From the IMG/VR virus record IMGVR_UViG_3300006224_000007, positions 1-64,000 of that record: 64,000 nucleotides of DNA; one strand, 5' to 3'. This document shows, in pieces, positions 2,227 through 55,496 of this stretch (positions are counted from its first letter, which is position 1; the number at the start of each line of letters is the position of its first letter). The notes under the pieces are model-generated. The model did no database searches. It saw only the letters and a list, made by a program, of their open reading frames with translations, and had not been told where the DNA came from. The position numbers were made by a program, and so were the translations under genes. The stretch is from a virus.

Positions 2227-3029
2227 TGGAAACTCCTAAAACAACTTTGTGGATTCCTCCAGAACTTTATGCAGAATTAATGTATTATGCTCATAATGTA
2301 AACACAGAAATCGGTGGTTATGGTTTAATTGAGATTGATAAGGAACACAATGACCTGTTAGTTGGAGAAGTGTTTCTCACTGAACAAGAAGTTCATGGTT
2401 CAAAATGTGACCTTTCTGCTGCTGGTCTAGCAATTTATATGGAAGATTTAATTGCTAGGGGAGAACAAGATAAAATTGAACAGATTACTTTGTGGTGGCA
2501 CTCTCATGTAAATATGTCACCATCACATTCTGGTCAAGATGAAGATACAATGCTTGAATGGCCTAGCAATTATGTGGTATCCCTGGTAATAAATCGCAAG
2601 GGAGATATGAAAGCTCGTCTAATGTCTAAAACTCCAGTAATAGTTGCAGGAGATATAGATGTAGCAGTTGACTGGCTTGATAATGAAAGTGCTGAAGTAT
2701 TAAATCAAACTATAGAAGATAAGGTAAAGGAATATACTCCCCCAAAGCCCGAGATAGTTGTTCAGGGTCAATTGCAACCAACTCCAAGAGGAAATGGTGG
2801 ATACAGCCCGTATGGATGGCCTCAAAATTATTGGGGCGGTTATCAAAGCTGTATGGATAAAAAGCCAGAGAAAAAGGCTCATGAACTAACTGATTCTGAA
2901 TGGAAAAATGAGCAAGAACGGCTTGATGCCGAAATAAATGCCTGGGAAAACAATGATATTGAAGGAATCATCAAGTATGGTGGTCTAGATGAAGCTGAAG
3001 CTAAGGCAATAAGAGAAATGTGGGATTAG
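2226..3029 (+). CDS. JAMM/MPN (JAB) metalloprotease, predicted Ubl processing or deconjugating enzyme
   Basis: A 267-residue protein with a complete JAMM zinc-protease signature: catalytic Glu28 in a TEIGG context, then His92-x-His94-x7-Ser102-x2-Asp105. Enzymes of this family cut isopeptide bonds or trim the C-terminus of ubiquitin-like proteins. The catalytic domain fills about residues 1-165. A Pro/Gly/Tyr-rich linker (about 175-215) and a charged helical tail follow. It sits between the E2-like and E1-like genes, so its likely substrate is the 77-residue modifier at 50-283, whose tail has no ready Gly-Gly. The motif is unambiguous; the substrate is inferred. Confidence 0.88.
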   Translation: METPKTTLWIPPELYAELMYYAHNVNTEIGGYGLIEIDKEHNDLLVGEVFLTEQEVHGSKCDLSAAGLAIYMEDLIARGEQDKIEQITLWWHSHVNMSPSHSGQDEDTMLEWPSNYVVSLVINRKGDMKARLMSKTPVIVAGDIDVAVDWLDNESAEVLNQTIEDKVKEYTPPKPEIVVQGQLQPTPRGNGGYSPYGWPQNYWGGYQSCMDKKPEKKAHELTDSEWKNEQERLDAEINAWENNDIEGIIKYGGLDEAEAKAIREMWD

Positions 3030-3031
3030 TT

Positions 3032-3688
3032 ATGACTGAAGCTTACACTAGAAGTATAGGAATTTTCAACCCCGATAATTCCCGACCAGTAGCTATTCTT
3101 GGTTGTGGTTCTGTTGGTTCTTTCGTAGCCTTGACATTAGCCAAAATGGGAGTACAATCTCTACATCTTTGGGATGGTGACACGGTTGGAGAAGAAAACA
3201 TTGGTTGCCAGAATTTTGGTTGGGAACACTTGGGTATGCCAAAGGTTGAAGCAGTAAAAGAAGTCATAATGGCTAATTCTCCAGTTAAGAGTGAGAATAT
3301 CCATTGTCACAATGAGTTTATCGGACCAGACACTAGGTTGCCAAAGATTATCACTGTTGTAGCAGTTGATAGCATGACAATACGACATTTGATTTGGGAT
3401 AAGCTCAAGAACAAAGTACCATTGATAGTCGATGGGCGCGTAGGTGGGCAGATAGTAAGAGTATTTAATGTACTTCCGACAGAAGAATTCTCAATATACT
3501 ATGAGAAATATCTTGTGCCAGAAGAAAAGGCATTAGAGCTTCCATGTACCGAAAGAAATGTCGCCTATGTTGCCAATATAGTACAAGCTATAATAGGGAG
3601 AGCCATACGAAATTTTATTGTAAATGGAAGAGTGGAGAAAGAAATCGGTATTGATGTTGCTACATTTATTAACTATGTAAAGGAATAA
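3032..3688 (+). CDS. E1/ThiF-like adenylyltransferase (Ubl activation)
   Basis: A 218-residue minimal E1. The nucleotide site is clear: GCGSVG at 24-29, Asp48 and Asp50 after the second strand, Asn56, Gln60 and Lys71, and the AVDS strand with Asp113. Cys172 in PCTERN near the C-terminus is the best candidate for the thioester cysteine. Such proteins adenylate the C-terminus of a ubiquitin-like partner using ATP and Mg. There are no extra domains (no rhodanese or UFD). The ATG at 3032 has GGGA eight bases upstream; a GTG at 3020 is in frame but poorly spaced. It directly follows the JAMM gene, completing a Ubl-E2-JAMM-E1 set. Confidence 0.88.
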   Translation: MTEAYTRSIGIFNPDNSRPVAILGCGSVGSFVALTLAKMGVQSLHLWDGDTVGEENIGCQNFGWEHLGMPKVEAVKEVIMANSPVKSENIHCHNEFIGPDTRLPKIITVVAVDSMTIRHLIWDKLKNKVPLIVDGRVGGQIVRVFNVLPTEEFSIYYEKYLVPEEKALELPCTERNVAYVANIVQAIIGRAIRNFIVNGRVEKEIGIDVATFINYVKE

Positions 3689-3936
3689 TGATGAAAGAAA
3701 ATAAAGCATTCTCTATAACCCCTGCTGAAATTCCTCCGAGAAAAGGAAAATCCAGCAAATATGTTGCTAGTGTAGAACAATTTTTAGCCTCAAATGAAAA
3801 GGCTGGAAAAATAACGCCAGAAGGCATAAAACTCAATGCGGTGTATTCTGGCTTTCATAGAGCAATAAAAAACGGATACTCTGACAAAGTAACCCTTTGT
3901 AGGGTAGATGGAGAGCTTTATATTGAAAAGCTCTAA
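3688..3936 (+). CDS. Small basic protein of unknown function
   Basis: An 82-residue protein starting at tandem ATGs (3688/3691), overlapping the E1 stop. Its C-terminal half (GFHRAIKNGY ... VDGELYIEK) resembles the protein at 15118-15261 (GLDRAIRKCGY ... KRGEVFIKK), so both seem to belong to one small helix-strand family, possibly nucleic-acid binding. It may only be co-transcribed with the Ubl cassette rather than part of it. Confidence 0.65.
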   Translation: MMKENKAFSITPAEIPPRKGKSSKYVASVEQFLASNEKAGKITPEGIKLNAVYSGFHRAIKNGYSDKVTLCRVDGELYIEKL

Positions 3937-3959
3937 TCTTCCTAGAAAGGAAAACTAAC

Positions 3960-4010
3960 ATGGCTTGGTTAGCTAAATTTGTGGAGTATCTTCTTACTAG
4001 GAAGAAATGA
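3960..4010 (+). CDS. Possible 16-residue basic amphipathic peptide
   Basis: A short frame, MAWLAKFVEYLLTRKK, with a GAAAGGA ribosome site and no overlap with the gene before it. The helix would be amphipathic and membrane-active in character. Too short to be sure; it may be a leader peptide for the next gene. Confidence 0.35.
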   Translation: MAWLAKFVEYLLTRKK

Positions 4011-4017
4011 GTTGCCC

Positions 4018-4314
4018 GTGAATCTTAATATGAATTCCTTGTTCGAAGACTATAAGAAACAAACAAGTGAAATAACTTCTGTTGGAGAAGCTCTGATTCT
4101 TCTGGAAGATATATATGAAATTGACCCTGATGAAGTAGCTGATTTATATGTAATATTTCATGAGCTTATAGTTGATAAGTTAAAAAGTTCCTCCCATAGA
4201 TGCAAAAGCAAGGACAAACACATTAATGAAAAGGTTGAGTTAATGCTTGATGCATTTTTCTTTGGTATGTTTGTAGCTGATGAAACTTGTTGGAACTGGC
4301 CTGATAAAAAGTAA
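4018..4314 (+). CDS. Hypothetical acidic helical protein
   Basis: About 98 residues from GTG 4018 (an ATG at 4030 is equally possible). The sequence is helical and acidic, ending DETCWNWPDKK. No family recognised. It lies directly after the short peptide frame and before an inverted-repeat region. Confidence 0.6.
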   Translation: MNLNMNSLFEDYKKQTSEITSVGEALILLEDIYEIDPDEVADLYVIFHELIVDKLKSSSHRCKSKDKHINEKVELMLDAFFFGMFVADETCWNWPDKK

Positions 4315-10390: not shown

Positions 10391-10398
10391 TTGTAATT

Positions 10399-10485
10399 GG
10401 GCGAGTGGCGGAACTGGCAGACGCGCTAGACTTAAAATCTAGTCTTTGGGAAACCGGGGTGCGGGTTCAATTCCCGCCTTGCCCA
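10399..10485 (+). tRNA. tRNA-Leu (anticodon UAA)
   Basis: A full cloverleaf: acceptor GGGCGAG/CTTGCCC (one G-T pair), anticodon loop CTTAAAA on a CTAGA/TCTAG stem, long class II variable arm and T arm GCGGG-TTCAATT-CCCGC. Discriminator A; CCA is not encoded. UUA is a frequent codon in this A+T-rich phage, so it probably boosts translation. Confidence 0.95.
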
Positions 10486-10505
10486 TTAAACAAACGGAGG
10501 ATATA

Positions 10506-22992: not shown

Positions 22993-24156
22993 ATGAAAGT
23001 AATAGCAACTGAGAAATTACCTATCAAGTTATGGTTGGAAGACATAGAGGATGGTGCTTTGGAACAGGCCAAACATCTTGCTAATCTTCCTTTCATACAT
23101 AAGCATGTAGCAATCATGCCTGATTCTCATGAAGGATATGGAATGCCTATTGGTGGAGTATTAGCTACCAAAGGTGTAGTAATTCCTAATGCGGTTGGTG
23201 TAGATATTGGTTGTGGAATGTGTGCTGTAAAAACTGACCAATACCAACACTGGATTCAACCCGAACAGTACAAACAAATAATGGGTAGAATTCGGGAAGA
23301 GATTCCTGTAGGATTTTCTCACCAGGAAACTGCTCAACAAATTCGTGATTTGCCTGATGGTGTAGAAGAAGACTATGTTATTGCAAGACAATATCTTGCA
23401 GCCCAAAAACAAATTGGAACTCTTGGTGGTGGAAACCATTTTATTGAGATTCAGTATGATGAAAAAGGCATGGTCTGGATAATGGTTCATTCTGGTTCTA
23501 GAAATCTTGGCAAGCAAGTTGCTGATGTGTATAATAAATGGGCGGTTCATTTGAATGAGCGTTGGCATTCTCAGGTTCCTAAAGAATGGCAGCTTGCTTT
23601 TCTTCCTATTGAAGAAGAAGTAGCCAAGAGATACATCATTGAAATGCAATACTGTGTAGATTTTGCCTTAGATAATAGATTAAATATGATGAACAAAATC
23701 CAGGATATCTTTGCAGAAGTTCTTGGTGTAGTTGGCTATGGTGATATAATTAACATAGCTCATAACTATGCTGTTTGGGAAAACCATTTTGGACAGAATG
23801 TTATTGTTCATAGAAAAGGTGCTACTCGCGCTAGAACAGGAGAGATAGGAATAATTCCTGGTAGCATGGGTACTTCGTCTTATATTGTGGAAGGATTAGG
23901 AAATGCTGAATCGTTTACGTCTTGCTCTCATGGTGCGGGTAGGAGAATGGGTAGAAAAGAAGCTACAAAAAGACTGGACCTTAGTACAGAAATCGGAAAC
24001 ATGGACGCAAAAGGAATCATACATGGTCTTAGAAATCAATCAGACTTGGATGAAGCGCCAGGAGCTTACAAAGATATAGATGAAGTGATGGAAAATCAAA
24101 AAGACCTTGTTAAGATTCTTGTTAAATTACAACCATTGGCGGTAATAAAGGGATGA
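22993..24156 (+). CDS. rtcB: RtcB RNA ligase
   Basis: 387 residues. Conserved RtcB landmarks: MPDSHEGYGMPIG, VGVDIGCGMCAV (Mn-binding Asp/Cys), GGGNHFIE, MVHSGSRNLGK and SCSHGAGR near the end, whose His takes the GMP. RtcB joins 2',3'-cyclic phosphate or 3'-phosphate RNA ends to 5'-OH ends. No archease is seen. It lies after the nucleotidyltransferase, pointing to an RNA-repair pair. Confidence 0.95.
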   Translation: MKVIATEKLPIKLWLEDIEDGALEQAKHLANLPFIHKHVAIMPDSHEGYGMPIGGVLATKGVVIPNAVGVDIGCGMCAVKTDQYQHWIQPEQYKQIMGRIREEIPVGFSHQETAQQIRDLPDGVEEDYVIARQYLAAQKQIGTLGGGNHFIEIQYDEKGMVWIMVHSGSRNLGKQVADVYNKWAVHLNERWHSQVPKEWQLAFLPIEEEVAKRYIIEMQYCVDFALDNRLNMMNKIQDIFAEVLGVVGYGDIINIAHNYAVWENHFGQNVIVHRKGATRARTGEIGIIPGSMGTSSYIVEGLGNAESFTSCSHGAGRRMGRKEATKRLDLSTEIGNMDAKGIIHGLRNQSDLDEAPGAYKDIDEVMENQKDLVKILVKLQPLAVIKG

Positions 24157-27963: not shown

Positions 27964-29862
27964 ATGATTATTTTAACTGAAGAAGCATTAGATAATGTAT
28001 TAGAAACTCTATCAACTTCTGAGTTGATAGCCTTTGACTTTGAGACAATGCCATCAGGCTTATATCCTGACGTTGATAAAAAAGAAGCTTCTATTCATCA
28101 CAAAATGCTAGAGATTGAAGGTCTTGCTCTAAGAAGTGAAAAACTTGAGCCTGTGTACATTCCATTTACCGATACAGAGGTATCGAGAATATATCTAGTA
28201 GAGCAATTAAAGAAGCTTTTTAGTCAGGATTCTCTGTTCATAGCACATAACATACAGTTTGATGCTAAAGTAGCAGATTACTTTCTTGGAGCAAGACCTA
28301 AAAATAAATTCTGTACGCTTGTTGGCTACTGGTATCTTGATGAAAACGTTCCAAAGGATGCCAAAACTCTTGCCAAAAAACATTTTGGCATGGATATGAT
28401 TTCTTATGATGAGGCTAAAAAACTTTCAAAAGAAGAATTCTATGAATATGCCAAAAGAGATGCTCAAGCTACTTACTTGTTGTATTTCTTTCTAAAAGAA
28501 AATCTTGAAAAGAAACATTGGCATTTAGCATCTACAATAGAGATGCAATTTATTGACGTTCTTATAGATATGACTTTACATGGAACGCCTTGTGACCTTG
28601 ATTACCTTAAAAAAGGTGAAGAGCTTCTTACCAACAAGGCAATAGAACTAGAAGCTAAAATCCATAGAGAGCTTGGAGAGTTTAACATTGGTTCTACTCA
28701 ACAACTTTGTGAAAAAATCTACGGAATAAAAATTAAAAGAACTAAGGCTGAAGGTTTAACTCTAACTAAAGTAGACGATTATAGTTCCAAAAAGTATGCC
28801 AAGGTTATAGATACAACTGAAACTGGTGCGCCTAGCACAGATGAAAAAGCTTTATCTAAATTAAATACTCCTGCTGCTAATCTCATAAAAGAATATCGTG
28901 GGATAATGAAGCTTCTTTCTACCTATGCCATAGGATATCAGAAGTATGTTATTGACAATAGAATTTATCCTACGTTCAATAACTCAGGCAAGGAATCATT
29001 CCAATATGGTACAGTAACAGGAAGATTAAGTTCTGCTGCTCCCAACATGCAAAATATTTCTCATGAAGCTACAGAAGGATGGTGGCTAAGAGAAGCTATT
29101 TATGCTCCTGAAGGATATGATTTAATTGTAGCTGATGAATCCCAGCTAGAAGTACGATTGCTTGCTCATTTTAGTAAGGATGAATATTTAACTCAGGCTA
29201 TTAGGTCTGGAGAAGATGTTCACTTAGCGACAGCAAAGCTTATTTTCAACAAAGATGATATTGATAAGGAAGAAAGACGCTTTGCCAAGACCATGAATTT
29301 CTCCATAAGTTATGGTCAAGGAATAAATGCTATTGCTGAAGCCTTGAAAGTTACTCCAGCAGAGGCAAAACAGTTTAAATATGACTATTTTGATACGTTT
29401 CCTGGTGTAGATGATTGGGTTACAAGGGTTGGGAATAGGGTTGTAAATCCAGAAAATGCTGACCATCATGTTATAACTATAATTGGAAGAAAAAGAAGAT
29501 TTCCAGAGATACCAGCATTACAGATTTTGCCAACTGATTCAGAAGAAGTATACAAATATAAAAGAGGGCAACTAGCTAGAGTTAAACGTCAAGCTGTTAA
29601 CTCTATTATCCAAGGCTCTGCTTCTGACGTTTTAAAAATGGCTATGGTATGGATAAGCCAGGAGTTTAAAAACAAACAATTAGACGCACATATAATTCTT
29701 CAAGTTCATGATGAACTTGTGATAGAATCTAGAAAAGACTATACAGAACAAGCTATGGAGATAGTCAAGAATCATATGGAAAGACCGTTTGAAGACGAGC
29801 TAGATGTTCCCCTAGAAGTTAAGCCGATGAAAGTTAAAAAATGGAGTGAGGGAAAGGATTGA
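27964..29862 (+). CDS. Family A DNA polymerase with 3'-5' exonuclease
   Basis: 632 residues. Exonuclease motifs: FDFE (Asp25-x-Glu27), AHNIQFD and YAKRDAQATY. Polymerase motif A is ADESQLEVRLLAH (DYSQIE in most relatives), motif B RRFAKTMNFSISYGQG (Ser for the usual Gly after NF), motif C LQVHDELVIE. No 5' nuclease domain. Main phage replicase, in the same block as SSB, RecA and resolvases. Confidence 0.95.
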   Translation: MIILTEEALDNVLETLSTSELIAFDFETMPSGLYPDVDKKEASIHHKMLEIEGLALRSEKLEPVYIPFTDTEVSRIYLVEQLKKLFSQDSLFIAHNIQFDAKVADYFLGARPKNKFCTLVGYWYLDENVPKDAKTLAKKHFGMDMISYDEAKKLSKEEFYEYAKRDAQATYLLYFFLKENLEKKHWHLASTIEMQFIDVLIDMTLHGTPCDLDYLKKGEELLTNKAIELEAKIHRELGEFNIGSTQQLCEKIYGIKIKRTKAEGLTLTKVDDYSSKKYAKVIDTTETGAPSTDEKALSKLNTPAANLIKEYRGIMKLLSTYAIGYQKYVIDNRIYPTFNNSGKESFQYGTVTGRLSSAAPNMQNISHEATEGWWLREAIYAPEGYDLIVADESQLEVRLLAHFSKDEYLTQAIRSGEDVHLATAKLIFNKDDIDKEERRFAKTMNFSISYGQGINAIAEALKVTPAEAKQFKYDYFDTFPGVDDWVTRVGNRVVNPENADHHVITIIGRKRRFPEIPALQILPTDSEEVYKYKRGQLARVKRQAVNSIIQGSASDVLKMAMVWISQEFKNKQLDAHIILQVHDELVIESRKDYTEQAMEIVKNHMERPFEDELDVPLEVKPMKVKKWSEGKD

Positions 29863-38998: not shown

Positions 38999-39246
38999 TG
39001 CAAATTTGCATAATGTGTGGTAGTTCAACTGAAGGTAGTATGGATGGTCCTTTTATTTGTGGTCATTGTGATTGTGGTATAAGACCAGATGGAGAAAAGT
39101 TTACTGTGGATGATGCTAGAAATTATTATATAAGGGTAAGAGAATGGAGACAGATGATACAAGAAATTCTTCCTAATGGCGATAGTTTTGATGTTGCCAC
39201 TATGAAATTTTATAAAGAGAAAGGTTCTATTTTCAATGCCACATAA
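38998..39246 (+). CDS. Small zinc-binding protein
   Basis: 82 residues. CIMCGSS and CGHCDCG at the N-terminus. Precedes and overlaps the RNR gene by 11 bases. Unknown. Confidence 0.6.
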   Translation: MQICIMCGSSTEGSMDGPFICGHCDCGIRPDGEKFTVDDARNYYIRVREWRQMIQEILPNGDSFDVATMKFYKEKGSIFNAT

Positions 39247-41572
39247 TCAACCACATATTCAGAAACTATTAGAAGACCGTTATTATCTTCGTGATGAAGA
39301 AGGTAATCTTCTAGAAGATGACCCAAAGCAGATGTTCTCAAGAGTAGCTATTGAAGTCTCTGAAGCAGAAACAAACTTTGATACTAAGCTTGAATGGCAA
39401 AGAAAATTCTATGACTTAATGGCGGAAAATAAATTTCTTCCTAATACTCCATTACTTATCAATGCTGGTAAACCAAAACCAGGATGCTTCTCTGCTTGTT
39501 TTGTACTGCCAGTAGAAGATTCTATGATAGGAATCTTTGAAGCAGTAAAACAATCTGCTTTGATTATGAAAGCTGGCGGTGGAGTAGGCTATAACTTTGG
39601 TCGCTTGAGAGAAAAAGGTGCGATAGTAAAATCAACTGGTCATAAAGCTAGTGGTCCTGTATCTTTCATGCAAGCATTTGATTCTATGATTGATACTGTA
39701 GCTCAAGGTGGAACTAGAAGAGGCGCGGCAATAGCTGTTCTTCCAGTATGGCATCCTGATATAGAAGAATTCATTGAAATGAAAGATGCCGGTGGGTTCA
39801 GCAATTTTAATATCTCTGTTGGTATTACAGATGACTTTATGGAAAATGTAGAAGAGGATGATGACTGGTACTTAATACCTCCAGCCTATATTTCCTTGTC
39901 AAAAATTCCCACTATGTATTTAAAAACAGTTAAAGCTAGAGAGTTATGGAATAAGATAGTAGAACATGCATGGAAAACTGGCGACCCTGGATTAGTATTT
40001 CTTGATACTATTAATAGAGCGCATCCATTAGAGGAAGAGATAGAAGCTACAAATCCTTGTGGAGAGATTCCTCTCAGACCATACGAGAGTTGTAATCTTG
40101 GTAGTATTAATCTTATGGCCTATATAACTGACAAAGGATTACAGACTCAGGGAATGGGTATGCCTAAAGCATACTACTTTGATTGGGATGCCTTAGCAAA
40201 AGATATTCCTACTATGGTTCGTTTTCTTGATGATGTTATTGATGTTAATCCTTTCCCTCTTCCCGAAATTGATAAAGCTAGTAAGGAAAGTCGTAAGATT
40301 GGTCTTGGTATTATGGGATGGGCAGATTGTCTTATCCAGATGAAAATTCCTTATGGTAGTCAAGAAGCTCTTGATTTAGCTGAACAATTAATGCTCTTTA
40401 TTAAATCCGAAGCGATTAAAGCATCATCTGAGTTAGGAAAAGAAAAAGGCTTGTATCCTCTATGTACTCATGAAGGAGAAGGTTTCGGCAGAGATAGAAG
40501 AAATGCTACTCTTCTTTGTGTCGCTCCTACTGGAACTATTAGTAGAATGGCTGGAGTTAGCTCAGGAATAGAACCTATCTTTGCTTGGGAAACTCACCAT
40601 AAACTAGTAGACCTAGAGTATGACGAAACTCATTGGGCAATTCCTGAATGGCATAAACATTGTACTGATTTAGACTGGGCAGAACCAGAAGGTGGTACAG
40701 GTAAAAAACCTAGCTGGATGAAAACAGCTAATGAGATTCCTTGGGGATGGCATCTTAAAATGCAAGCTACCTTTCAAAAGTATGTGGATAATAGTATAAG
40801 TAAAACTATTAATCTACCAAATGAAACTGCTAAAGAATGTATAGATTTAGTTTATACAGAAGCATGGAAATTAGGATTAAAAGGAATAACTATTTATAGA
40901 GATAAGTGTAAAGAGAATCAACCCTTAAATAAGATTGTTAGTCTTCCTGACTATCATATTAATGATTCTGAGCCGCTTGAACAAGCTATAGCTAAACTAC
41001 AACCTATTTATAGAAAACGTGGTCCTGTAGCACCAGGAGTAACTCATAAAGTAGATACCGGCAAGGGAAAAATCTATATCACTATTAACTATAGTGAGTA
41101 TCATTCTGAGCCAGTAGAAGTATTTATCAGATTAGGGCATCTTTCTACTTCAACTGAAGCTGCCTTAGCAGAGTACACAGGAAGACTCATTAGTTTGCTC
41201 TTGAAGCATAATATTTCTATTGATAATATTGTTCGCCAAGGAAATAAGGTATACGGAGACAATGTTTTCTGGTATAATCAAGAGTCGTTCTGTAGCTTTC
41301 CCAAGCTGATTTCTCACCTTCTCAGTTTTACTTTTGATGAAGCTATGGATATGGCTGGAATGGATTTTGATTCTATGATGGAGAATGGTCACGATGAAGA
41401 GGAAGAAGACACTCCTTATGAACCAATTCCCCATGATAAAGATTCCTTTAATGAACTTTTACACAGTAGAGTTACTGGTGGAGAGTATTGCTATGAGTGC
41501 GGTAACTATGCTATAATCGGTGAAGGTGGTTGCAAAGTATGTCAGAATTGTGGATTTGAAGAGTGCGGATAA
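39236..41572 (+). CDS. nrdJ: Class II (adenosylcobalamin-dependent) ribonucleotide reductase
   Basis: 778 residues. Landmarks: NTPLLINAGKPKPGCFSACFVLPV, KAGGGVGYNFGRLR, GTRRGAA, NPCGEIPLRPYESCNLGSINL (active-site Cys and loop) and APTGTISRMAGVSSGIEP. The C-terminus has a TSCPD-type region and a zinc ribbon (YCYECGNYA...CQNCGFEECG). A single-chain, oxygen-independent enzyme making dNTPs with B12 coenzyme, so the phage needs host cobalamin. Confidence 0.93.
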   Translation: MPHNQPHIQKLLEDRYYLRDEEGNLLEDDPKQMFSRVAIEVSEAETNFDTKLEWQRKFYDLMAENKFLPNTPLLINAGKPKPGCFSACFVLPVEDSMIGIFEAVKQSALIMKAGGGVGYNFGRLREKGAIVKSTGHKASGPVSFMQAFDSMIDTVAQGGTRRGAAIAVLPVWHPDIEEFIEMKDAGGFSNFNISVGITDDFMENVEEDDDWYLIPPAYISLSKIPTMYLKTVKARELWNKIVEHAWKTGDPGLVFLDTINRAHPLEEEIEATNPCGEIPLRPYESCNLGSINLMAYITDKGLQTQGMGMPKAYYFDWDALAKDIPTMVRFLDDVIDVNPFPLPEIDKASKESRKIGLGIMGWADCLIQMKIPYGSQEALDLAEQLMLFIKSEAIKASSELGKEKGLYPLCTHEGEGFGRDRRNATLLCVAPTGTISRMAGVSSGIEPIFAWETHHKLVDLEYDETHWAIPEWHKHCTDLDWAEPEGGTGKKPSWMKTANEIPWGWHLKMQATFQKYVDNSISKTINLPNETAKECIDLVYTEAWKLGLKGITIYRDKCKENQPLNKIVSLPDYHINDSEPLEQAIAKLQPIYRKRGPVAPGVTHKVDTGKGKIYITINYSEYHSEPVEVFIRLGHLSTSTEAALAEYTGRLISLLLKHNISIDNIVRQGNKVYGDNVFWYNQESFCSFPKLISHLLSFTFDEAMDMAGMDFDSMMENGHDEEEEDTPYEPIPHDKDSFNELLHSRVTGGEYCYECGNYAIIGEGGCKVCQNCGFEECG

Positions 41573-43300: not shown

Positions 43301-44329
43301 TTGAATATAAAGATTACAGGGTGTGGAGACGCTAGAGACGGCTATGGTGAGATAACTCAGAACCTAGTTTTAGCTCTGGACAAATTAGGACATAAAGTGT
43401 GGTTGAACCCTGTAAAAATCTGGTATAGAAAAGAAACTTTAAAAGAACGGACAATTGAATTACTTGAACCAGTTAAACCAGATTTTGAACTTATAATTAT
43501 GTACCCTGTTTATGATTTTGGAATGATTCATAAAAAGGCTGCAATAATGACTATGTATGAAGCTCATAAATGTCCTGATGCTTGGGTTAAAAAACTTAAT
43601 CAACTTCGTCTACCTATTATAGCTCCTAGTCAGTTTGTTGCTGATATGTTTAAAACAAGTGGAGTTAATGTAGGTATATCTGTGTTAAATCTTGGAGTAG
43701 ATACAGAGTTTTATTCTCCCAAGCTACGAGAATTTCCAGAAGGAAGACCTTTTAGATTTCTTACGATGGGCAAACTAGAGCCTAGAAAGAATGTAGAATC
43801 GGCTGTTAGATGCTTTCAAGAGTCTTTTAAAACTGAGAATGTAGAACTTATAATTAAGACAAGAGAAAGATTTTTATCAAGTAGAATTAGAAATGCTGCA
43901 CAACAAGATAAAAGAATTCGCTTAATAGAACAAACTATTTCTGAAGAAGAACTTAGAAAACTTTTTTATTATGCTGATGCCTTTGTCTATCCTAGTCGTG
44001 GAGAAGGCTTTGCTTTTCCTCCACGATTTGCAGTAGCAACTGGTATGCCAACTCTGGTAACTGATTGGAGTGCTTTAGCAGAAATTCCTGGAGCTATTAA
44101 AATTCCCATTGATGGATTAGGACCAATGCCATCTTGTGGGTTTTCCTATGGACAGGAAAAGGAACTCCATATGGCCTATATTAATGAGCCTAAGTTAATG
44201 TATGAAATGTATTGTCTTGCTACAGACAAATCCTTGTATAAAGAAGCTGCTAAGGAAGTTTTTAAAGCTAGACAAGATACTTGGGAGGACTGTGCAAACA
44301 ACTTTATTAGTATGGTGGAGGGTAAATGA
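43301..44329 (+). CDS. Glycosyltransferase group 1 (GT4-like)
   Basis: 342 residues, TTG start. ITGCGDARDGYGEITQNL, a glycine-rich start, and a C-terminal Rossmann part (FLTMGKLEPRKN, ADAFVYPSRGEGFAFPP with the E-x-G-x-G loop) typical of GT4 retaining transferases. First gene of the glycan cluster. Confidence 0.85.
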   Translation: MNIKITGCGDARDGYGEITQNLVLALDKLGHKVWLNPVKIWYRKETLKERTIELLEPVKPDFELIIMYPVYDFGMIHKKAAIMTMYEAHKCPDAWVKKLNQLRLPIIAPSQFVADMFKTSGVNVGISVLNLGVDTEFYSPKLREFPEGRPFRFLTMGKLEPRKNVESAVRCFQESFKTENVELIIKTRERFLSSRIRNAAQQDKRIRLIEQTISEEELRKLFYYADAFVYPSRGEGFAFPPRFAVATGMPTLVTDWSALAEIPGAIKIPIDGLGPMPSCGFSYGQEKELHMAYINEPKLMYEMYCLATDKSLYKEAAKEVFKARQDTWEDCANNFISMVEGK

Positions 44330-45774
44330 CTATAGCTCTTAATATGATTGTTGGACCTTATGAAGAACCTTTTCTTCATGCAGCTATAACCTCTACTCTA
44401 GACTTGGTTGATGAACTTGTTTTTGTAGATACAGCACCAGAAAATAATCCTAATCGAGAAGAGTTAGAATCCTTTAGGGAATATAATATGAAAATCATTG
44501 ATATGCCTAGAGGGGAGGATAAAGATTTTAATTTTGCTATGGCAAGAGAATTAGCAAGAACATATACAACTATGGATTGGGTTCTTCGTCTTGATGCCGA
44601 TGAAGTATTGCATGAAAAAGATATTGAAAATCTTAAACGATTTACTAATGATGATAGATTTAATACTATAGAAATTTCTTTCTACCATTTTATGGTTTAT
44701 CCTTGGCTTTATCAATATATAGAACCAAAAGGAATTCTCATGAGAACTGGCAGTTTTTCCTGGATTAAGGACGTTCATGAAGTACCAAGAACTACGGGAA
44801 GAATTCGTAAAGAACATGAGATTAAATATTTTCATTATGGATATTGCCGTGGTCAAGAGGAAGTTTTTAAACGCTGGCAACTCTATGTTGAAATTGATGG
44901 AAGACCAACATGGTATCAAGGAGTTAATCCTGCTACGATATTAGACGATAGAATATCTGTGTGTCAAAATTTCAAGGGGGAGCATCCTATAGTAGTACAG
45001 GATACGCTGGCAAAGTTATTCCATGATGTAACCCCTTTTCAAGTGAAAGAGATTCCGAGGTATAGAGTGAGTGATAAATTTGTAGGTTTACTTCTTATAA
45101 CATATAATGATAAGGAAAATCTTGAGAGAATGCTTCTTAGTTTAGAGGCAACTATAGATTATCCAACTGTACTATACATAGCAGATATGGGTTCAACCGA
45201 TGGAACCTATGATTTACTTATTGATTGGCAACAAAAAATGTTTGCAATCAATCCTTATTTCAAAGATATTATTATACAAGCTTGGCCTAATCTTGAATCC
45301 TTAACAAAAACAATGAATGTTGGTTTTAAGTCATTAATGTCTCGTCAAGAATGTGACTTTATTGGTTGGATTCATCCTGATATGCTATTTGAATCTTGCT
45401 GGTTAAGTGAGTTAGTAGCAACGTTAGACTATCATCCTGAAATTGGTAAAGCTTGCTCTTTTAATACCAGAGATGGATGGCCTGTCAGTGAAGAAATTAA
45501 AGAAGGGCAAGAACAAGCCTATTTAATTAGAAGAGGTATTCTATTTAGAATTGGCTTGTTTGATGAAAAGTTTATTGGTATTGGTGGATATGAAGATTGG
45601 GATATGAACAATCGTATACGTCAAGAAGGTTTAAAAGTAGTCATTGTTCCGCGCTCTAAGGTATGGCATAAAGGAATGCAAACCCGTTCTAGAAGAGATA
45701 CTTCAGCAGAGCAGATATATAATGCTGGAGTATATCAAACTAAATGGAAGTCTCATAAAGAAAGCATTGAATGA
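44326..45774 (+). CDS. Double-domain family 2 glycosyltransferase
   Basis: 482 residues with two GT2 domains. First: VFVDTAPE and LRLDADEV (a DxD). Second (from about residue 255): LLLITYNDKENLERM, IADMGSTDGTYD and WIHPDM, with GIGGYEDWDMNNR in the acceptor-binding region. Can build two sugar linkages. Confidence 0.85.
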   Translation: MTIALNMIVGPYEEPFLHAAITSTLDLVDELVFVDTAPENNPNREELESFREYNMKIIDMPRGEDKDFNFAMARELARTYTTMDWVLRLDADEVLHEKDIENLKRFTNDDRFNTIEISFYHFMVYPWLYQYIEPKGILMRTGSFSWIKDVHEVPRTTGRIRKEHEIKYFHYGYCRGQEEVFKRWQLYVEIDGRPTWYQGVNPATILDDRISVCQNFKGEHPIVVQDTLAKLFHDVTPFQVKEIPRYRVSDKFVGLLLITYNDKENLERMLLSLEATIDYPTVLYIADMGSTDGTYDLLIDWQQKMFAINPYFKDIIIQAWPNLESLTKTMNVGFKSLMSRQECDFIGWIHPDMLFESCWLSELVATLDYHPEIGKACSFNTRDGWPVSEEIKEGQEQAYLIRRGILFRIGLFDEKFIGIGGYEDWDMNNRIRQEGLKVVIVPRSKVWHKGMQTRSRRDTSAEQIYNAGVYQTKWKSHKESIE

Positions 45775-50410: not shown

Positions 50411-50727
50411 TGAGAATTGATTTTTTACACCCAAAATTTCATGAGGGTTGGAATAGTACTGTTAGAAGAGGTATTCGCAGTATAAATCCTGGAGATAAAG
50501 TAGAATTATTTGAAACTGGAGCAGAAACTCCTGTAGCTATTGGAGAAGTAACTGATATTATTGTAACTCAGCTTTCAACTATTTATATGTTTCCACAACT
50601 TATTCAATATCAACATGATGAAGAAACTCAACACTTACATGGTTTACTGGAAGCTATGGATAGAGCCTACCCAGGAATTAGACCGTCTGAAGTAATTACA
50701 ATTATCTATTTTATGGTGGAGGAATAA
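50410..50727 (+). CDS. ASCH/PUA-like small protein
   Basis: 105 residues from ATG 50410 (GGGAGAAATA). STVRRGIRSINPGDKVELF and IGEVTDIIV resemble the ASCH/PUA-type RNA-binding fold, with low certainty. Confidence 0.55.
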   Translation: MRIDFLHPKFHEGWNSTVRRGIRSINPGDKVELFETGAETPVAIGEVTDIIVTQLSTIYMFPQLIQYQHDEETQHLHGLLEAMDRAYPGIRPSEVITIIYFMVEE

Positions 50728-51176
50728 TGGAAAGACCTAGTTGGGATGAATACTTCATAGACTTAGCAGTATTAGTAGCTAGTCGCTCTACTTGTCTTAG
50801 AAAACAACACGGCGCAATTATAGTGAAAGACAAGCAAATTCTTAGTACAGGATACAATGGTACTCCCTCTAAAATAACTCACTGTGAAACTTGTTTTAGA
50901 GAAGAGCATAATATTCCTCATGGAACTATGTATGAGCTTTGCAAATCTACCCATGCTGAAGCTAATGCTATTGTACAAGCGGCCAAACATGGAGTTTCTA
51001 TTAATGGTGCCGATATGTATATTACTGGTATTCCGTGCCTTATGTGTGCAAGACTTATAATCAATGCTGGTATCAAGAATATAATTACTGCGTTTGATGA
51101 AAACGAAGACCAGATGCAAGCATCATTAGAGCTTCTTAAAGAAGCCAAACTACCCTTTAGGAGAGTGGACTTGTAG
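50727..51176 (+). CDS. dCMP deaminase
   Basis: 149 residues. Zinc site: STHAEANAI (catalytic Glu) and GIPCLMCARLI (PCxxC), with a second Cys cluster (CETCF). Converts dCMP to dUMP, feeding dTTP synthesis; works with RNR. Typical of phages. Confidence 0.93.
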   Translation: MERPSWDEYFIDLAVLVASRSTCLRKQHGAIIVKDKQILSTGYNGTPSKITHCETCFREEHNIPHGTMYELCKSTHAEANAIVQAAKHGVSINGADMYITGIPCLMCARLIINAGIKNIITAFDENEDQMQASLELLKEAKLPFRRVDL

Positions 51177-51388
51177 TGGAATGTCCAAGATGCCATAAGA
51201 CACACTTTAATACTTTTATAATTAGCCGATATAAAGAGAAGATGCCTGTTAATAAATGTTGTATTTGTGGGTATCTTTGGATAGATGACAAAGATTTAAT
51301 TACACTAACAAAGGCTGAGTCGAAGAAAATGTTCATAGAAACTTTGAGGAATATGGGGAAATATGACCAACGAAAAGACAGTAGTTAA
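51176..51388 (+). CDS. Small zinc-ribbon protein before terminase
   Basis: 70 residues, GTG start. CPRCHK and CCICGY knuckles. Overlaps the terminase gene by 26 bases. Unknown. Confidence 0.6.
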   Translation: MECPRCHKTHFNTFIISRYKEKMPVNKCCICGYLWIDDKDLITLTKAESKKMFIETLRNMGKYDQRKDSS

Positions 51389-53891
51389 ACTATCTCCTGC
51401 ACTTGAAGAGAAGATAGTTGATAAAATTGTAGACCTTGCTCAATATATGGGAGAGATGAAATTCTACCCATATCAACTTCCTTTTGCTCGGAGACTAACT
51501 CAGAGCATTATCACTAATGAGGGTGCTACCCTCTCCGCTCTTTTTTCCCGTCAGTGTATTCTTCAAAAATCATTTATCATGGACCGTGATGGTAAGGTCA
51601 TGTTCATTGAAAAACACCCTGATGCCTGGGAAACACAAAGTCAAGCTAATATTTTAGAGATTAAAACTCTTGGTGGTCATGTAATTAAATGCACAGAAGA
51701 ACACCCTATTGCTACAGACCAAGGTTGGATGCCAGCCCAATGTGTAGAAAAGGGTACAAAAGTAGTAGTCCTAGACCAATGGAATAAGTTTGGAGATGGA
51801 ATAATTCCATACAAGGACAAAACTTTTGTTATGAGTAATGATTTGGCTGAGTTAGTTGGATGGCTTACTGCAAATATCAGAGATTCAGAAGAAGTTAAAA
51901 TCACCATAGGCCATAAAAGAGTCTTAGAACTGATTACAAAATATTTTCTTGATTCAGATTTTACTGCTAGAAAGACTAGTTTGACCATTCGATTGAATGG
52001 TCACTTAAAAAATTTCTTAAAATTTGTAATTAAATACAATAGTTATGGTATGCCTGAAGGCATTAACTATTTTACTAGAGAACAGTTGATTAGATTCTTT
52101 TACCCACTATTTCTTACTAATGGAAAAACCTATAAGAAACCTAGCACTATGAAGATAATGCTAAAAGACTTAAACTATTTTGCTCTATTGTTTTACAAGG
52201 AGCATCTTAATAAGCTAGGTTTACATGGAAACTACGAGATGTGGATTGGTCATAACTTAATTTTTCAATGTGCTACTAACTACTTACGTTTTAAAGAATT
52301 GTTTGAAGAATATCTTCCCAAAGAGTATTTTCCTTCTTTCTATCAGTATAGAAAAAGAGCCAGCAAAACTTTTGAAGGAGAAGATGGAGAAATTCTTACC
52401 TATGCTAGAGTACATTCAATAAAATGGGAAGCTGTGCATGTTCCTGTATGGGATATTAATGTTCCTGATAAGGGATGGTTTTTAGTTTCAGGTGCAAAAG
52501 TGCATAACTCAGGAAAAACTCAAGTTGTAGCTATGATTACGGCTGCTTGCATGGTAGTTTTGCCTACGTTAGCAGAAAAATTTCCTGAGAATTTTGGCTT
52601 GTTTATTAAGGGATTTTGGGCTGGATGCTTTGGTCCTGTAGGAGAACAAGCTATTACAATGTTTGATAGAATCTACTCAGTTTTTGTTTCAGATAATAGT
52701 AAAAGATTATTCATTGAAGAGTTAAAGATGCCAATACCAGCGCAGGGTGGAGCGCGTGGAAACCTAATCAAGCTTAAAAATAAGTCCTTTGTACGTTATC
52801 AATCTGGTAGTCGTAGAGCAAAAGTTGAGTCTAAAACATACCATCTTATCATTCTTGATGAATGTCAAGATATGGAATCCTTCAAGATTAAGAAGTCTAT
52901 TCTTCCTATGGGTGCTGCTGTTAATGCTACAGTTGTAACTACAGGTACACCTGATGTTTACATTGGTTATTTTTATGATACAATAGAACAGAATAAAGCC
53001 GAAGATATTAAAAATCCAGGTCCAAAGCAAATGCACTTTGAAATTGATTATCAAGTTGCTCAAAAATATAATCCTATGTATAAGAAGTATATTCAAAAAG
53101 AGATAAAACGTCTTGGTTTTGAATCTGATGAATTCAAGATGGCCTATAGACTTATTTGGCCTATAACAAAAGGGATGGTATTTACTAAATCTCAACTAGA
53201 TGAAAAGTGTTATAATAAGGCATTGAAGTTTGTACAGGAATGGCATGAAACACCTTGTATAGCTGGGCTTGACTTAGGAAAGGCTCAAAACTCTACAGTC
53301 GTGTTTGTTCTTAGACCTTTTTGGGAAGATGCTGACGAAGAAGGAAATGTTCCTAAACAAATTTTAAACTGGATGGAACTTGAAGGAGATGAATGGGAAG
53401 AACAATATCCAAAAGTGGTAGACTTTCTAAGCAACTATTGGATTGATTCCCTAGTCTGTGATTCAACAGGAGTAGGTAATCCTATAACAGAACGTTATGC
53501 TAAACTACTTCCTAATACAAACGTAGTTCCATTTGTATTTAGTCCTACCTCTAAAGATATTGGGTATAAATACTTTCTTCAAGAAGTTAATCAAAAGAGA
53601 TTAATTATTCCCGCCCATACGAGCGTTCGTAATACTAATCGGTTCAAAAAATTTGAGCATCAGATGACTACTTTGAAGAAACATTATAGTGGTAAGTTTT
53701 TAAGTCCATGCCCTATAGATGCCGATAAAGGTCATGATGACTATTGTGATTCCTTGATGCTTGCTATATTCGGTACATTTTATGAAGTTATGCCTGAAAT
53801 AGAAGAAACATACAATGATTTCTTCCTAGCATCAAGAGATAATATAGAACAAACCTTTGGAAGAAACTATTCTAGACCGAGAAAAACATAA
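51363..53891 (+). CDS. terL: Terminase large subunit (precursor split by intein)
   Basis: 842 residues. The precursor is interrupted at residue 64/65 by a 318-residue intein. Once it is removed, RQ joins SGKTQ to make the Walker A of a T4-type packaging ATPase, with Walker B LIILDECQDM. The C-terminal nuclease has Asp at AGLDLGKAQNS, DSTGVGNP and GHDDYCDSLM. Mature length is about 524. Pumps DNA into the head and cuts concatemers. Followed by portal and head genes. Confidence 0.93.
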   Translation: MTNEKTVVKLSPALEEKIVDKIVDLAQYMGEMKFYPYQLPFARRLTQSIITNEGATLSALFSRQCILQKSFIMDRDGKVMFIEKHPDAWETQSQANILEIKTLGGHVIKCTEEHPIATDQGWMPAQCVEKGTKVVVLDQWNKFGDGIIPYKDKTFVMSNDLAELVGWLTANIRDSEEVKITIGHKRVLELITKYFLDSDFTARKTSLTIRLNGHLKNFLKFVIKYNSYGMPEGINYFTREQLIRFFYPLFLTNGKTYKKPSTMKIMLKDLNYFALLFYKEHLNKLGLHGNYEMWIGHNLIFQCATNYLRFKELFEEYLPKEYFPSFYQYRKRASKTFEGEDGEILTYARVHSIKWEAVHVPVWDINVPDKGWFLVSGAKVHNSGKTQVVAMITAACMVVLPTLAEKFPENFGLFIKGFWAGCFGPVGEQAITMFDRIYSVFVSDNSKRLFIEELKMPIPAQGGARGNLIKLKNKSFVRYQSGSRRAKVESKTYHLIILDECQDMESFKIKKSILPMGAAVNATVVTTGTPDVYIGYFYDTIEQNKAEDIKNPGPKQMHFEIDYQVAQKYNPMYKKYIQKEIKRLGFESDEFKMAYRLIWPITKGMVFTKSQLDEKCYNKALKFVQEWHETPCIAGLDLGKAQNSTVVFVLRPFWEDADEEGNVPKQILNWMELEGDEWEEQYPKVVDFLSNYWIDSLVCDSTGVGNPITERYAKLLPNTNVVPFVFSPTSKDIGYKYFLQEVNQKRLIIPAHTSVRNTNRFKKFEHQMTTLKKHYSGKFLSPCPIDADKGHDDYCDSLMLAIFGTFYEVMPEIEETYNDFFLASRDNIEQTFGRNYSRPRKT
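51555..52508 (+). other. Intein in terminase Walker A, with degenerate LAGLIDADG-type insert
   Basis: 318 residues, from Cys65 to Asn382 of the precursor. N-terminal block A is CILQKS, block B GHVIKCTEEHPI (T-x-x-H). C-terminal blocks have VWDINVPDKGWFLVSG and end VHN; the next residue is Ser, so Cys1, His-Asn and Ser+1 are all present. A middle region (LAELVGWLTAN) looks like a degenerate homing endonuclease. The intein appears splicing-competent. Confidence 0.9.
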
Positions 53892-53915
53892 TATTATAGA
53901 GAGGGGGTGTTTAAA

Positions 53916-55496
53916 ATAACATACGCTTTACCTGGAAATTTTGATTCACAAGTATATTCTAGTACATTCTTTGCTCAAGTGTTCAACTTTGGTCCAGACC
54001 ATTCTGAGCGAGTTACAAAATATCAAAACTGCTGGGATTTCTATGATGGAAAACATTGGACACAAACATCACCAGAAGGTTTTGACCAAGTTACAATTAA
54101 CTATTGCAAAACTTTTGTTAAAAAACTAAGACGTTTTGCATTTAGAAATTCCTGGTCAATGGTATTTACTCCAGAGCAAATTGAAGATGGAATTGATACT
54201 TGGGTTAAAGATGTTTGGAAGAACAATAACTTGAAAGGAATTACGAATACTGTGGCTGATTTTGGTGGTATTTTTGGGGATTGGTTTATCTATCCTCAAT
54301 GGCTTCCTAGTGCAGATGATGATATAGAAAAGCCAACTAATCCTGCTGATGTTAAATTAGTAGCCTTAGACCCTAGATATGTATTTCCACAATACAATTC
54401 GAAAACTGGAGATATGGAATTCTGTATCGTTTTGATTCCTTATCAAGATTTTAAACTTGTAGGAAACCAATTTGAATTAGAAAATAGAATCTATAGAGAG
54501 GTTCACACAAAAGAAAAAATCTTTATACAAGAACTAAATGAAAAAAATGAAGTTGTAGAAGACAGGGTAATTGACAATCCTCTTAATAAACTATTGATTG
54601 TTCATGGAATTCATCAACCTAAGCCTGGAAGCGATTTTGGCGCTGGTATTGTGGAGGACGTAATTGATGGAAATAAACTTTTCAATGAAAAAACTTCTGA
54701 CGTATCCGATATCTTGGATTATCACGCTGCTCCTATTACTATTATTTACGGAGCCAAGGCGAGACAACTAGAAAAGGGAGCAAACAAGATATGGTCTGGT
54801 CTTCCTGCTAATGCTAAAGTAGAGAACTTATCTAGCCAAGGAAATATTCCTGCGGCTAGAGACTTCTTGAAAGACGTTAAAACTTGGATGCATGAATTAG
54901 CAAGTATTCCTGAAAAGTCCCTTGGTGGTGAAAGACAAATTAGTAATACTGCTGCCTCTGCATTAGCTATTGATTTTGAACCTATTATAGAGTTGGCAGA
55001 AGATGTTCAGTTTTATTTTGATACGGGTATAAAGAAAGTAAATGAGCTTATTATAGATATTGGTATCTATACTGGAGCTATTAGTACAGACCTAGAAAAA
55101 CCAATTCTATATGAACATCATATAGAGCATGGGTCTTTACTTCCTAGAGATAGGTCTATCGACCTAGCAGATATTACTACAGAGATTAATCTTAGTATAG
55201 AGTCTAAAAGAGGCGCTATGCAAAGACTTGGAATTAAAAATGTTGATGCTAAGATTAAAGAAATTGAAGATGAAGAGGAAGAAGAAAAGAAACGTGCTAT
55301 GGAGTTAGCTCAGAAATATATGCCACCTGAAATGGTATATGAGGCTGGTAATACTGAAAACTTTGAAGAGCCAGATATATACGAGAAAGAAGAAGGTACT
55401 ACTACTAAACAAAAAAAGGCAAGAAAAGCGGTGAATAAAAATCCTGTTGTTCATGGGCAACAAGTAACTGATGAAGCTACGGTTAATAAATCATAG
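53916..55496 (+). CDS. Portal protein, probable ATA start
   Basis: About 526 residues. The Lys/Asp-rich mid-part (NKLLIVHGIHQPKPGSDFGAGIVEDVIDGNKLFNEKTSD) fits portals of the SPP1 type. The GTG at 53907 lies inside the GGGGGTG ribosome site. ATA at 53916 lies six bases after that site, so ATA is the better start. A charged coil ends the protein. It forms the ring through which terminase loads DNA. Confidence 0.85.
   Translation: MTYALPGNFDSQVYSSTFFAQVFNFGPDHSERVTKYQNCWDFYDGKHWTQTSPEGFDQVTINYCKTFVKKLRRFAFRNSWSMVFTPEQIEDGIDTWVKDVWKNNNLKGITNTVADFGGIFGDWFIYPQWLPSADDDIEKPTNPADVKLVALDPRYVFPQYNSKTGDMEFCIVLIPYQDFKLVGNQFELENRIYREVHTKEKIFIQELNEKNEVVEDRVIDNPLNKLLIVHGIHQPKPGSDFGAGIVEDVIDGNKLFNEKTSDVSDILDYHAAPITIIYGAKARQLEKGANKIWSGLPANAKVENLSSQGNIPAARDFLKDVKTWMHELASIPEKSLGGERQISNTAASALAIDFEPIIELAEDVQFYFDTGIKKVNELIIDIGIYTGAISTDLEKPILYEHHIEHGSLLPRDRSIDLADITTEINLSIESKRGAMQRLGIKNVDAKIKEIEDEEEEEKKRAMELAQKYMPPEMVYEAGNTENFEEPDIYEKEEGTTTKQKKARKAVNKNPVVHGQQVTDEATVNKS

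Follow-up and report, generated by a model that had tools for sequence, protein, structure and literature searches.

What does an intein do in the catalytic loop of a phage packaging ATPase, and why would such an element keep an endonuclease domain that has lost its catalytic residues? Both questions are raised by a locus in the 64,000 bases analysed here (the window, which covers bases 1-64000 of a virus record 77,150 bases long). On evidence from sequence and a structural model, the ORF at 51363-53891 on the plus strand (842 aa) is confirmed as a phage large terminase subunit (TerL) interrupted by a class 1 intein. PF14890 matches point to a single intein in the whole 77-kb record.

With the insert set aside, Walker A, Walker B and the acidic residues of the nuclease are all present in the ORF. 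Residues 381-811 match the terminase large subunit family phrog_2 (E 2.3e-21), and PF17289 scores 22.2 bits, slightly below its cut-off of 22.6. The N-extein (51363-51554, plus strand; 64 aa) ends in LSALFSRQ, the first half of Walker A, while the C-extein (52509-53888, plus strand; 460 aa), placed by phrog_2, PF17289 and motif positions, starts with SGKTQVVA. Located within the C-extein are the motifs that we take to be Walker B (IILDECQD, with DECQD at aa 499), TGTP (527) and the nuclease acidic motifs GLDLGK (635), CDSTGVG (699) and HDDY (791). Together the exteins come to 524 aa, the annotated length of TerL in Streptomyces phages BRock and LuckySocke. In these uninterrupted proteins the insertion point reads TALFSRQSGKTE, and in BRock TerL FSRQ is directly followed by SGKT. 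The gene for the portal protein (53907-55496, plus strand; phrog_64, E 7.2e-25) lies directly downstream of TerL. The window phage also encodes RtcB, a family A DNA polymerase, a ribonucleotide reductase, two glycosyltransferases, a dCMP deaminase and one tRNA-Leu, these features lying at 22993-24156, 27964-29862, 39236-41572, 43301-45774, 50727-51176 and 10398-10486.

The intein itself (51555-52508, plus strand) comprises 318 aa, CILQKSFIMD...FLVSGAKVHN, or ORF residues 65-382, as indicated by profiles, residues and predicted fold. It enters at FSRQ/SGKT (the slash marks the insertion point), between the Gln and Ser of Walker A. Its first residue is Cys1 (ORF residue 65), so the N-terminal nucleophile is present. 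The T-x-x-H motif, presumably block B, is formed by T47 and H50 and is invariant in 13 aligned same-site inteins; at the C-terminal side are D300, the Asp of what we take to be block F, then H317-N318 and Ser+1. The N-terminal Hint splicing half (51555-51830, plus strand; about aa 1-92, a boundary that is approximate and taken from the model) is recognized by TIGR01445 intein_Nterm (27.3 bits, cut-off 24.5) and by phmmer, which matches it to the Mtu RecA intein (PDB 2imz, E 2.9e-4). Next comes an endonuclease domain of LAGLIDADG fold that lacks both catalytic Asp (51834-52382, plus strand; about aa 94-276), identified by hhalign, alignment and fold match. The C-terminal Hint half (52383-52508, plus strand) rests on alignment, the residues D300 and His317-Asn318, and PF14890, which gives 31.6 bits in the window intein, below the cut-off of 35.8, and passes it in relatives L003 (40.4) and L110 (36.9).

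Structure prediction agrees with this assignment. An AlphaFold2 model of the intein, based on the alignment of 13 same-site inteins, reached a pLDDT of 92 and a pTM of 0.90, and it is matched from end to end by inteins of solved structure that contain a nested LAGLIDADG endonuclease. The best-ranked Foldseek matches were archaeal VMA inteins with nested endonucleases (7qsu, E 1.5e-14), and VIA-align against the Mtu RecA splicing domain gave a Z of 15.8 with an rmsd of 1.5 over 115 residues, as expected of a Hint fold. The model of the full precursor (pLDDT 75, pTM 0.46) is too weak to place the intein relative to the ATPase. A non-intein insertion was considered and is ruled out, the splicing motifs, the Hint fold and the empty homologues being in agreement. 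A preliminary description of this DNA had placed an intein between RQ and SGKTQ of Walker A and had judged its splicing residues intact. Its coordinates prove exact; every one of those residues is present, the predicted Hint fold is borne out by the RecA splicing domain, and homologues both with the intein and without it occur at the same site. The intein thus looks able to excise itself, which we infer from its residues and predicted fold.

Five scans of IMG/VR yielded 14 distinct TerLs, the window included, with an intein at FSRQ/SGK[ST]. A classification script returned 84 uninterrupted ORFs (77 distinct), 25 that contain an intein and one more (L110) with Ala-Asn at the intein's end, many of these being repeat fetches. 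The empty-site ORFs, to which BRock TerL can be added as an intein-free terminase, read FSRQ-SGK[T/S] straight through, and the TerL alignment behind the tree described below includes 68 of them. One locus, L002, was entered by hand, its N-terminal part being lost at a contig end. Left out were L004 and L007, which match L003 exactly in the part of terL compared; L113 and L114, which nearly duplicate L108; the re-fetches L012-L015, L019, L020, L023 and L024; and L001 and L018, both being the window itself. L112, L034 and L078 matched a DNA pattern, gave no ORF under the classification expression and stand outside the counts. L021 was left out as another terminase type; in its different terminase-like ORF (1712-4060) an insert sits at the same relative point, GGNR/C...HN/SGKT. 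An intein-only scan of viral contigs recovered no relative, though relatives exist, as one of the five IMG/VR scans attests, and a scan of genome contigs with the TerL C-extein found none either.

Among the 13 aligned same-site inteins, both catalytic Asp are kept in six (L022, L025, L108, L109, L111 and L115) and lost in six (the window, L002, L003, L005, L006 and L110). The thirteenth, L107, is a 159-aa mini-intein at the Walker A site without an endonuclease. The fourteenth same-site TerL, L116, has a very different intein (HN/CGKS) and was placed in the extein tree and outside the intein alignment. The penultimate intein residue is Ala in L110 (5592-6497; VAN/S) and Ser in L108. All six both-Asp inteins match PF14528 LAGLIDADG_3 (E 3.4e-13 or better). 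With these inteins of uncultured phages the window intein shares the insertion point and homologous Hint and endonuclease domains, but their endonuclease motifs are intact and its own are not. A single TerL site therefore displays several states of the homing cycle together: empty, both-Asp, nuclease-dead with no empty allele found, and mini-intein.

The loss of the catalytic residues is visible in the alignment. The predicted fold contains the two LAGLIDADG helices (intein residues 95-107 and 175-189), but in the window motif 1 has no Asp-Gly and motif 2 has Asn in place of Asp; the intein thus lacks what marks an active endonuclease, and we judge cleavage activity unlikely. All six dead members lack the Asp-Gly of motif 1 and have N, N, Q, H, K and I, respectively, in place of the motif-2 Asp, while the Gly-Lys that follows this position does not vary in five of these lineages. 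No Pfam LAGLIDADG domain was detected in the window intein (E up to 1) or in L003 (E up to 0.01), and L110 gave only a weak match below the cut-off (E 0.005). When five dead-clade domains (L002 being partial) were compared by hhalign with intact same-site domains (four of six), the relationship was clear (probability 98.2, E 4.7e-14). To the preliminary description the endonuclease had looked decayed. This holds for the catalytic residues, both Asp being gone, and overstates the case for the domain, which is full-length, confidently folded and under purifying selection in its clade. Rather than just decaying, the dead domain is conserved among relatives, which goes beyond what the earlier reading had seen.

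To follow the inheritance of the intein, a C-extein tree of 82 rows (68 empty, 14 with intein) was built, C-exteins shorter than 330 aa and duplicates being left out. It is a quick search in which long branches were flagged (L116, L008, L022, L111, L115 and others), and L016, L017, L053 (the same contig as L017) and L008 were scored as empty at Walker A despite an insert elsewhere. The six dead-endonuclease rows form one clade in this tree (SH-aLRT 100) and again in the intein tree (99/97), where the window pairs with L002 (98/93). No empty-site member of the dead clade, which comprises six genomes, was found in the 82-row tree or among the fetched loci. L025, L107, L108 and L109 are placed among empty rows, while L022, L111, L115 and L116 are on long branches of unsure placement. 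The intein/empty label requires at least 8 changes on the C-extein tree, 5 of them forced by starred branches.

Sequence identities point in the same direction. Within the dead clade, intein identity is below C-extein identity by 8-22 points in all 15 pairs. Among the both-Asp six it is higher in 12 of 15 pairs, equal in one and lower in two, but eight of those 12 pairs involve L109 (truncated, 36% filled in the tree alignment, and with a second intein) or L115 (with a second intein), where the signal is inflated. Without these two, the intein is the more similar in four of six pairs, most clearly in L025-L108 (62% vs 50%). Since the inteins of the dead clade track their exteins in alignments and trees, they have probably descended vertically. 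The overall pattern fits horizontal movement with a working endonuclease followed by vertical descent after its death; the horizontal half of this history would rest on few clean pairs, and the case for fixation of the intein in the dead-clade lineage likewise comes from few genomes (six).

Under a simple model of the homing cycle the dead domain should drift, but purifying selection is seen instead. Of all dead-clade pairs, L003-L005 is the furthest from synonymous saturation in the endonuclease domain. For this domain NG86 gave a pS of 0.63, a dN of 0.18 and a dS of 1.39, and thus a dN/dS of 0.13; with slightly wider bounds, YN00 gave 0.22 and ML 0.15. Neutral simulations of this pair matched on pS (n=200) reached identities of 0.066-0.271, compared with 0.724 observed. 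In the same pair the two Hint halves had NG86 dN/dS values of 0.09 and 0.13, at nearly saturated synonymous sites (dS 2.6 and 2.1), and parts of the C-extein had 0.02 and 0.06. Elsewhere the synonymous sites carry less information: NG86 dS in the endonuclease domain is infinite in 11 of 15 dead-clade pairs, and three pairs with L110 gave a dS of 1.75-2.49 and a dN/dS of 0.28-0.40, a weaker constraint. Within the inner five lineages, the nine remaining pairs share 51-66% identity in the domain, with synonymous sites saturated, and pairs with L110 share 32-37%. Of the six pairs put through the codon models (YN00, ML), four belong to the dead clade; outside L003-L005 the ML estimates of dS (2-25) lack credibility, as does the 11.7 obtained for the Hint of that pair, and YN00 gave values in 2 of 18 comparisons. 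For the dead domain, purifying selection is measured in a single pair, through dN/dS and simulation, and the other pairs are consistent with it. The need for an open reading frame alone cannot explain this conservation, since a frame can stay open while its amino acids change.

Given the above, we consider it highly likely that the window holds a spliceable class 1 intein whose ancestor homed, lost its Asp and was then inherited vertically, and whose dead domain was kept, likely for folding or splicing. Under this scenario the ancestral element would have entered the site by means of its LAGLIDADG endonuclease, both catalytic Asp would have been lost in the common ancestor of this phage lineage, with vertical inheritance since, and the nuclease-dead domain would have been retained at full length under purifying selection. 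The present intein would splice itself out of the terminase large subunit. Before it does so, the precursor, with Walker A split at SRQ/SGKT, should neither bind ATP nor package DNA, and the ATPase is expected to be inactive because its P-loop is divided by the insertion. The preliminary description had drawn from this that packaging is tied to intein removal; that reading is fair only insofar as an essential protein must splice, and it follows from the insertion site. Retention of the domain as a support for Hint folding or splicing is most likely. In the Thermococcus litoralis VMA intein the endonuclease domain likely contributes to splicing, in what is described as a mutualism of the two domains (PMC8966425). 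The L107 mini-intein lacks the domain, so it is not needed in every relative, which counts against a helper role.

The facts that suggest a folding support could also be read as a change of employment for the domain after excision, with the dead endonuclease exapted, in the manner of WhiA, as a nucleic-acid binder or regulator acting for example on terL, the packaging site or a transcript. WhiA has a LAGLIDADG domain that is not a nuclease, and the Foldseek matches include WhiA as well as the bI3 maturase. Purifying selection does persist after loss of both Asp, and the stretch after motif 2 has a net charge of +4 to +7 in five dead members and +2 in L110, compared with -2 to +1 in the both-Asp six. 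But this comparison was post hoc and concerns one short stretch in six rows that share one ancestor, one unit of the difference is the loss of the catalytic Asp itself, and net charge over the whole domain does not separate the groups (dead +8 to +14, both-Asp +4 to +21). Moreover, the Asp-less PhoVMA intein is reported to bind DNA more weakly than an active relative (PMC8966425), and folding support accounts for the same facts, so exaptation appears unlikely. The broader proposal that the dead domain has a new job in every sampled member of the lineage, whether nucleic-acid binding or obligatory help in splicing, and that this job maintains the purifying selection, is doubtful. If it were true, a former parasite would now help control when the packaging motor becomes active.

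A similar degree of improbability attaches to conditional splicing, in which the intein would act as a post-translational switch that delays the terminase until late infection or a cellular signal. The insertion in a catalytic loop and the failure to find an intein-free allele in the dead clade would suit such a switch; regulatory roles have been proposed for P-loop inteins, and TerL splicing is described as crucial for the active site (PMC5050341). However, the same source reports that five phage terminase inteins spliced readily, precursor being readily visible for one, the window sequence contains no pointer to a sensor, and a homing endonuclease equally needs a conserved target, which would itself lead to an active-site location. 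That the domain still cuts DNA with other residues, continued homing explaining the selection, is very unlikely: the domain is indeed conserved, but its catalytic positions are the exceptions, with the motif-1 Asp-Gly absent in 6/6 and the motif-2 Asp changed to five different residues in six lineages, and no empty allele turned up in the clade sampled, where inteins track exteins. It is highly improbable that the insert does not splice at all, the terminase being a pseudogene or working with the insert in place, as the splicing residues are kept over deep divergence, except for the penultimate His in L110 and L108, dN/dS between L003 and L005 is low in the Hint halves and C-extein parts, and the TerL motifs are intact. 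Retention for folding or splicing thus remains the reading that we prefer, and why inactive intein endonuclease domains persist becomes testable in a small, well-aligned set, with the L107 mini-intein as the match.

Related terminases carry inserts at other points as well. In L016 (2753-4015) the TerL is interrupted immediately behind Walker B by an intein-like insert (DE/C...HN/CQD), inside which a LAGLIDADG_2 ORF with an ATG and a stop occupies 3078-3926 on the same strand in another frame (Pfam E 9.3e-30). Over these 282 codons the TerL frame has 0 stops vs a mean of 10.8, and it was stop-free in none of 2000 synonymous-codon permutations. L017, which differs from L016 by one mismatch in 9020 bases, carries the same insert, so that the two make one independent example. 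An HNH endonuclease concealed out of frame within an insertion in a phage methylase has already been published (PMC11855218). Further intein-like inserts were seen at Walker B in L107, beside its Walker A mini-intein, downstream of Walker B in L008 and L109, before TGGT in L009, and in the nuclease HDDY motif of L115, beside its Walker A intein.

The closest known cases are the mycobacteriophage TerL1-a and TerL1-b inteins, which sit in the large terminase P-loop (Kelley et al. 2016, PMC5050341), the same study recording several independent TerL intein sites near Walker A, Walker B and the C-motif. Like the window intein they lie in a phage TerL P-loop, where their splicing is called crucial for the active site (PMC5050341), but the insertion point is not identical: TerL1-a separates the invariant Lys from Thr and TerL1-b is shifted by one residue (PMC5050341), whereas the window intein lies between Gln and Ser, three residues before TerL1-a. 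The exact point Gln/Ser and its same-site intein family were not met in searches of the open-access PMC literature. The host also differs, the window TerL being Terminase_6C-like, and so does the endonuclease, as TerL1-b and -c were tested as DNA-cleaving (PMC5050341) and the window intein is without both catalytic Asp. In this last respect it resembles the Pyrococcus horikoshii VMA intein (7qst), which likewise combines a Hint with an Asp-less LAGLIDADG domain, architecture kept (PMC8966425). The two align with a Z of 20.5 and an rmsd of 3.8 over 261 residues (Foldseek E 7.5e-11; 16% identity over the structural alignment). That intein interrupts an archaeal V-ATPase, and its authors see progressive degeneration (PMC8966425), whereas the window clade shows purifying selection, in one pair. 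The best structural match is the T. litoralis VMA intein (7qss; Z 24.5, rmsd 3.5 over 297 residues), which has the same domain order but an active endonuclease (PMC8966425) and a different host protein and site. As in the fungal PRP8 inteins, the endonuclease domain is under purifying selection by substitution ratio, but the PRP8 endonuclease is described as functional (PMC1654191) and the window domain lacks its catalytic Asp. P-loop TerL inteins, a folded Asp-less intein endonuclease and selection on functional intein endonucleases were thus already known; the dead endonuclease domain added here, unusually well conserved, is an evolutionary detail within a known kind of element.
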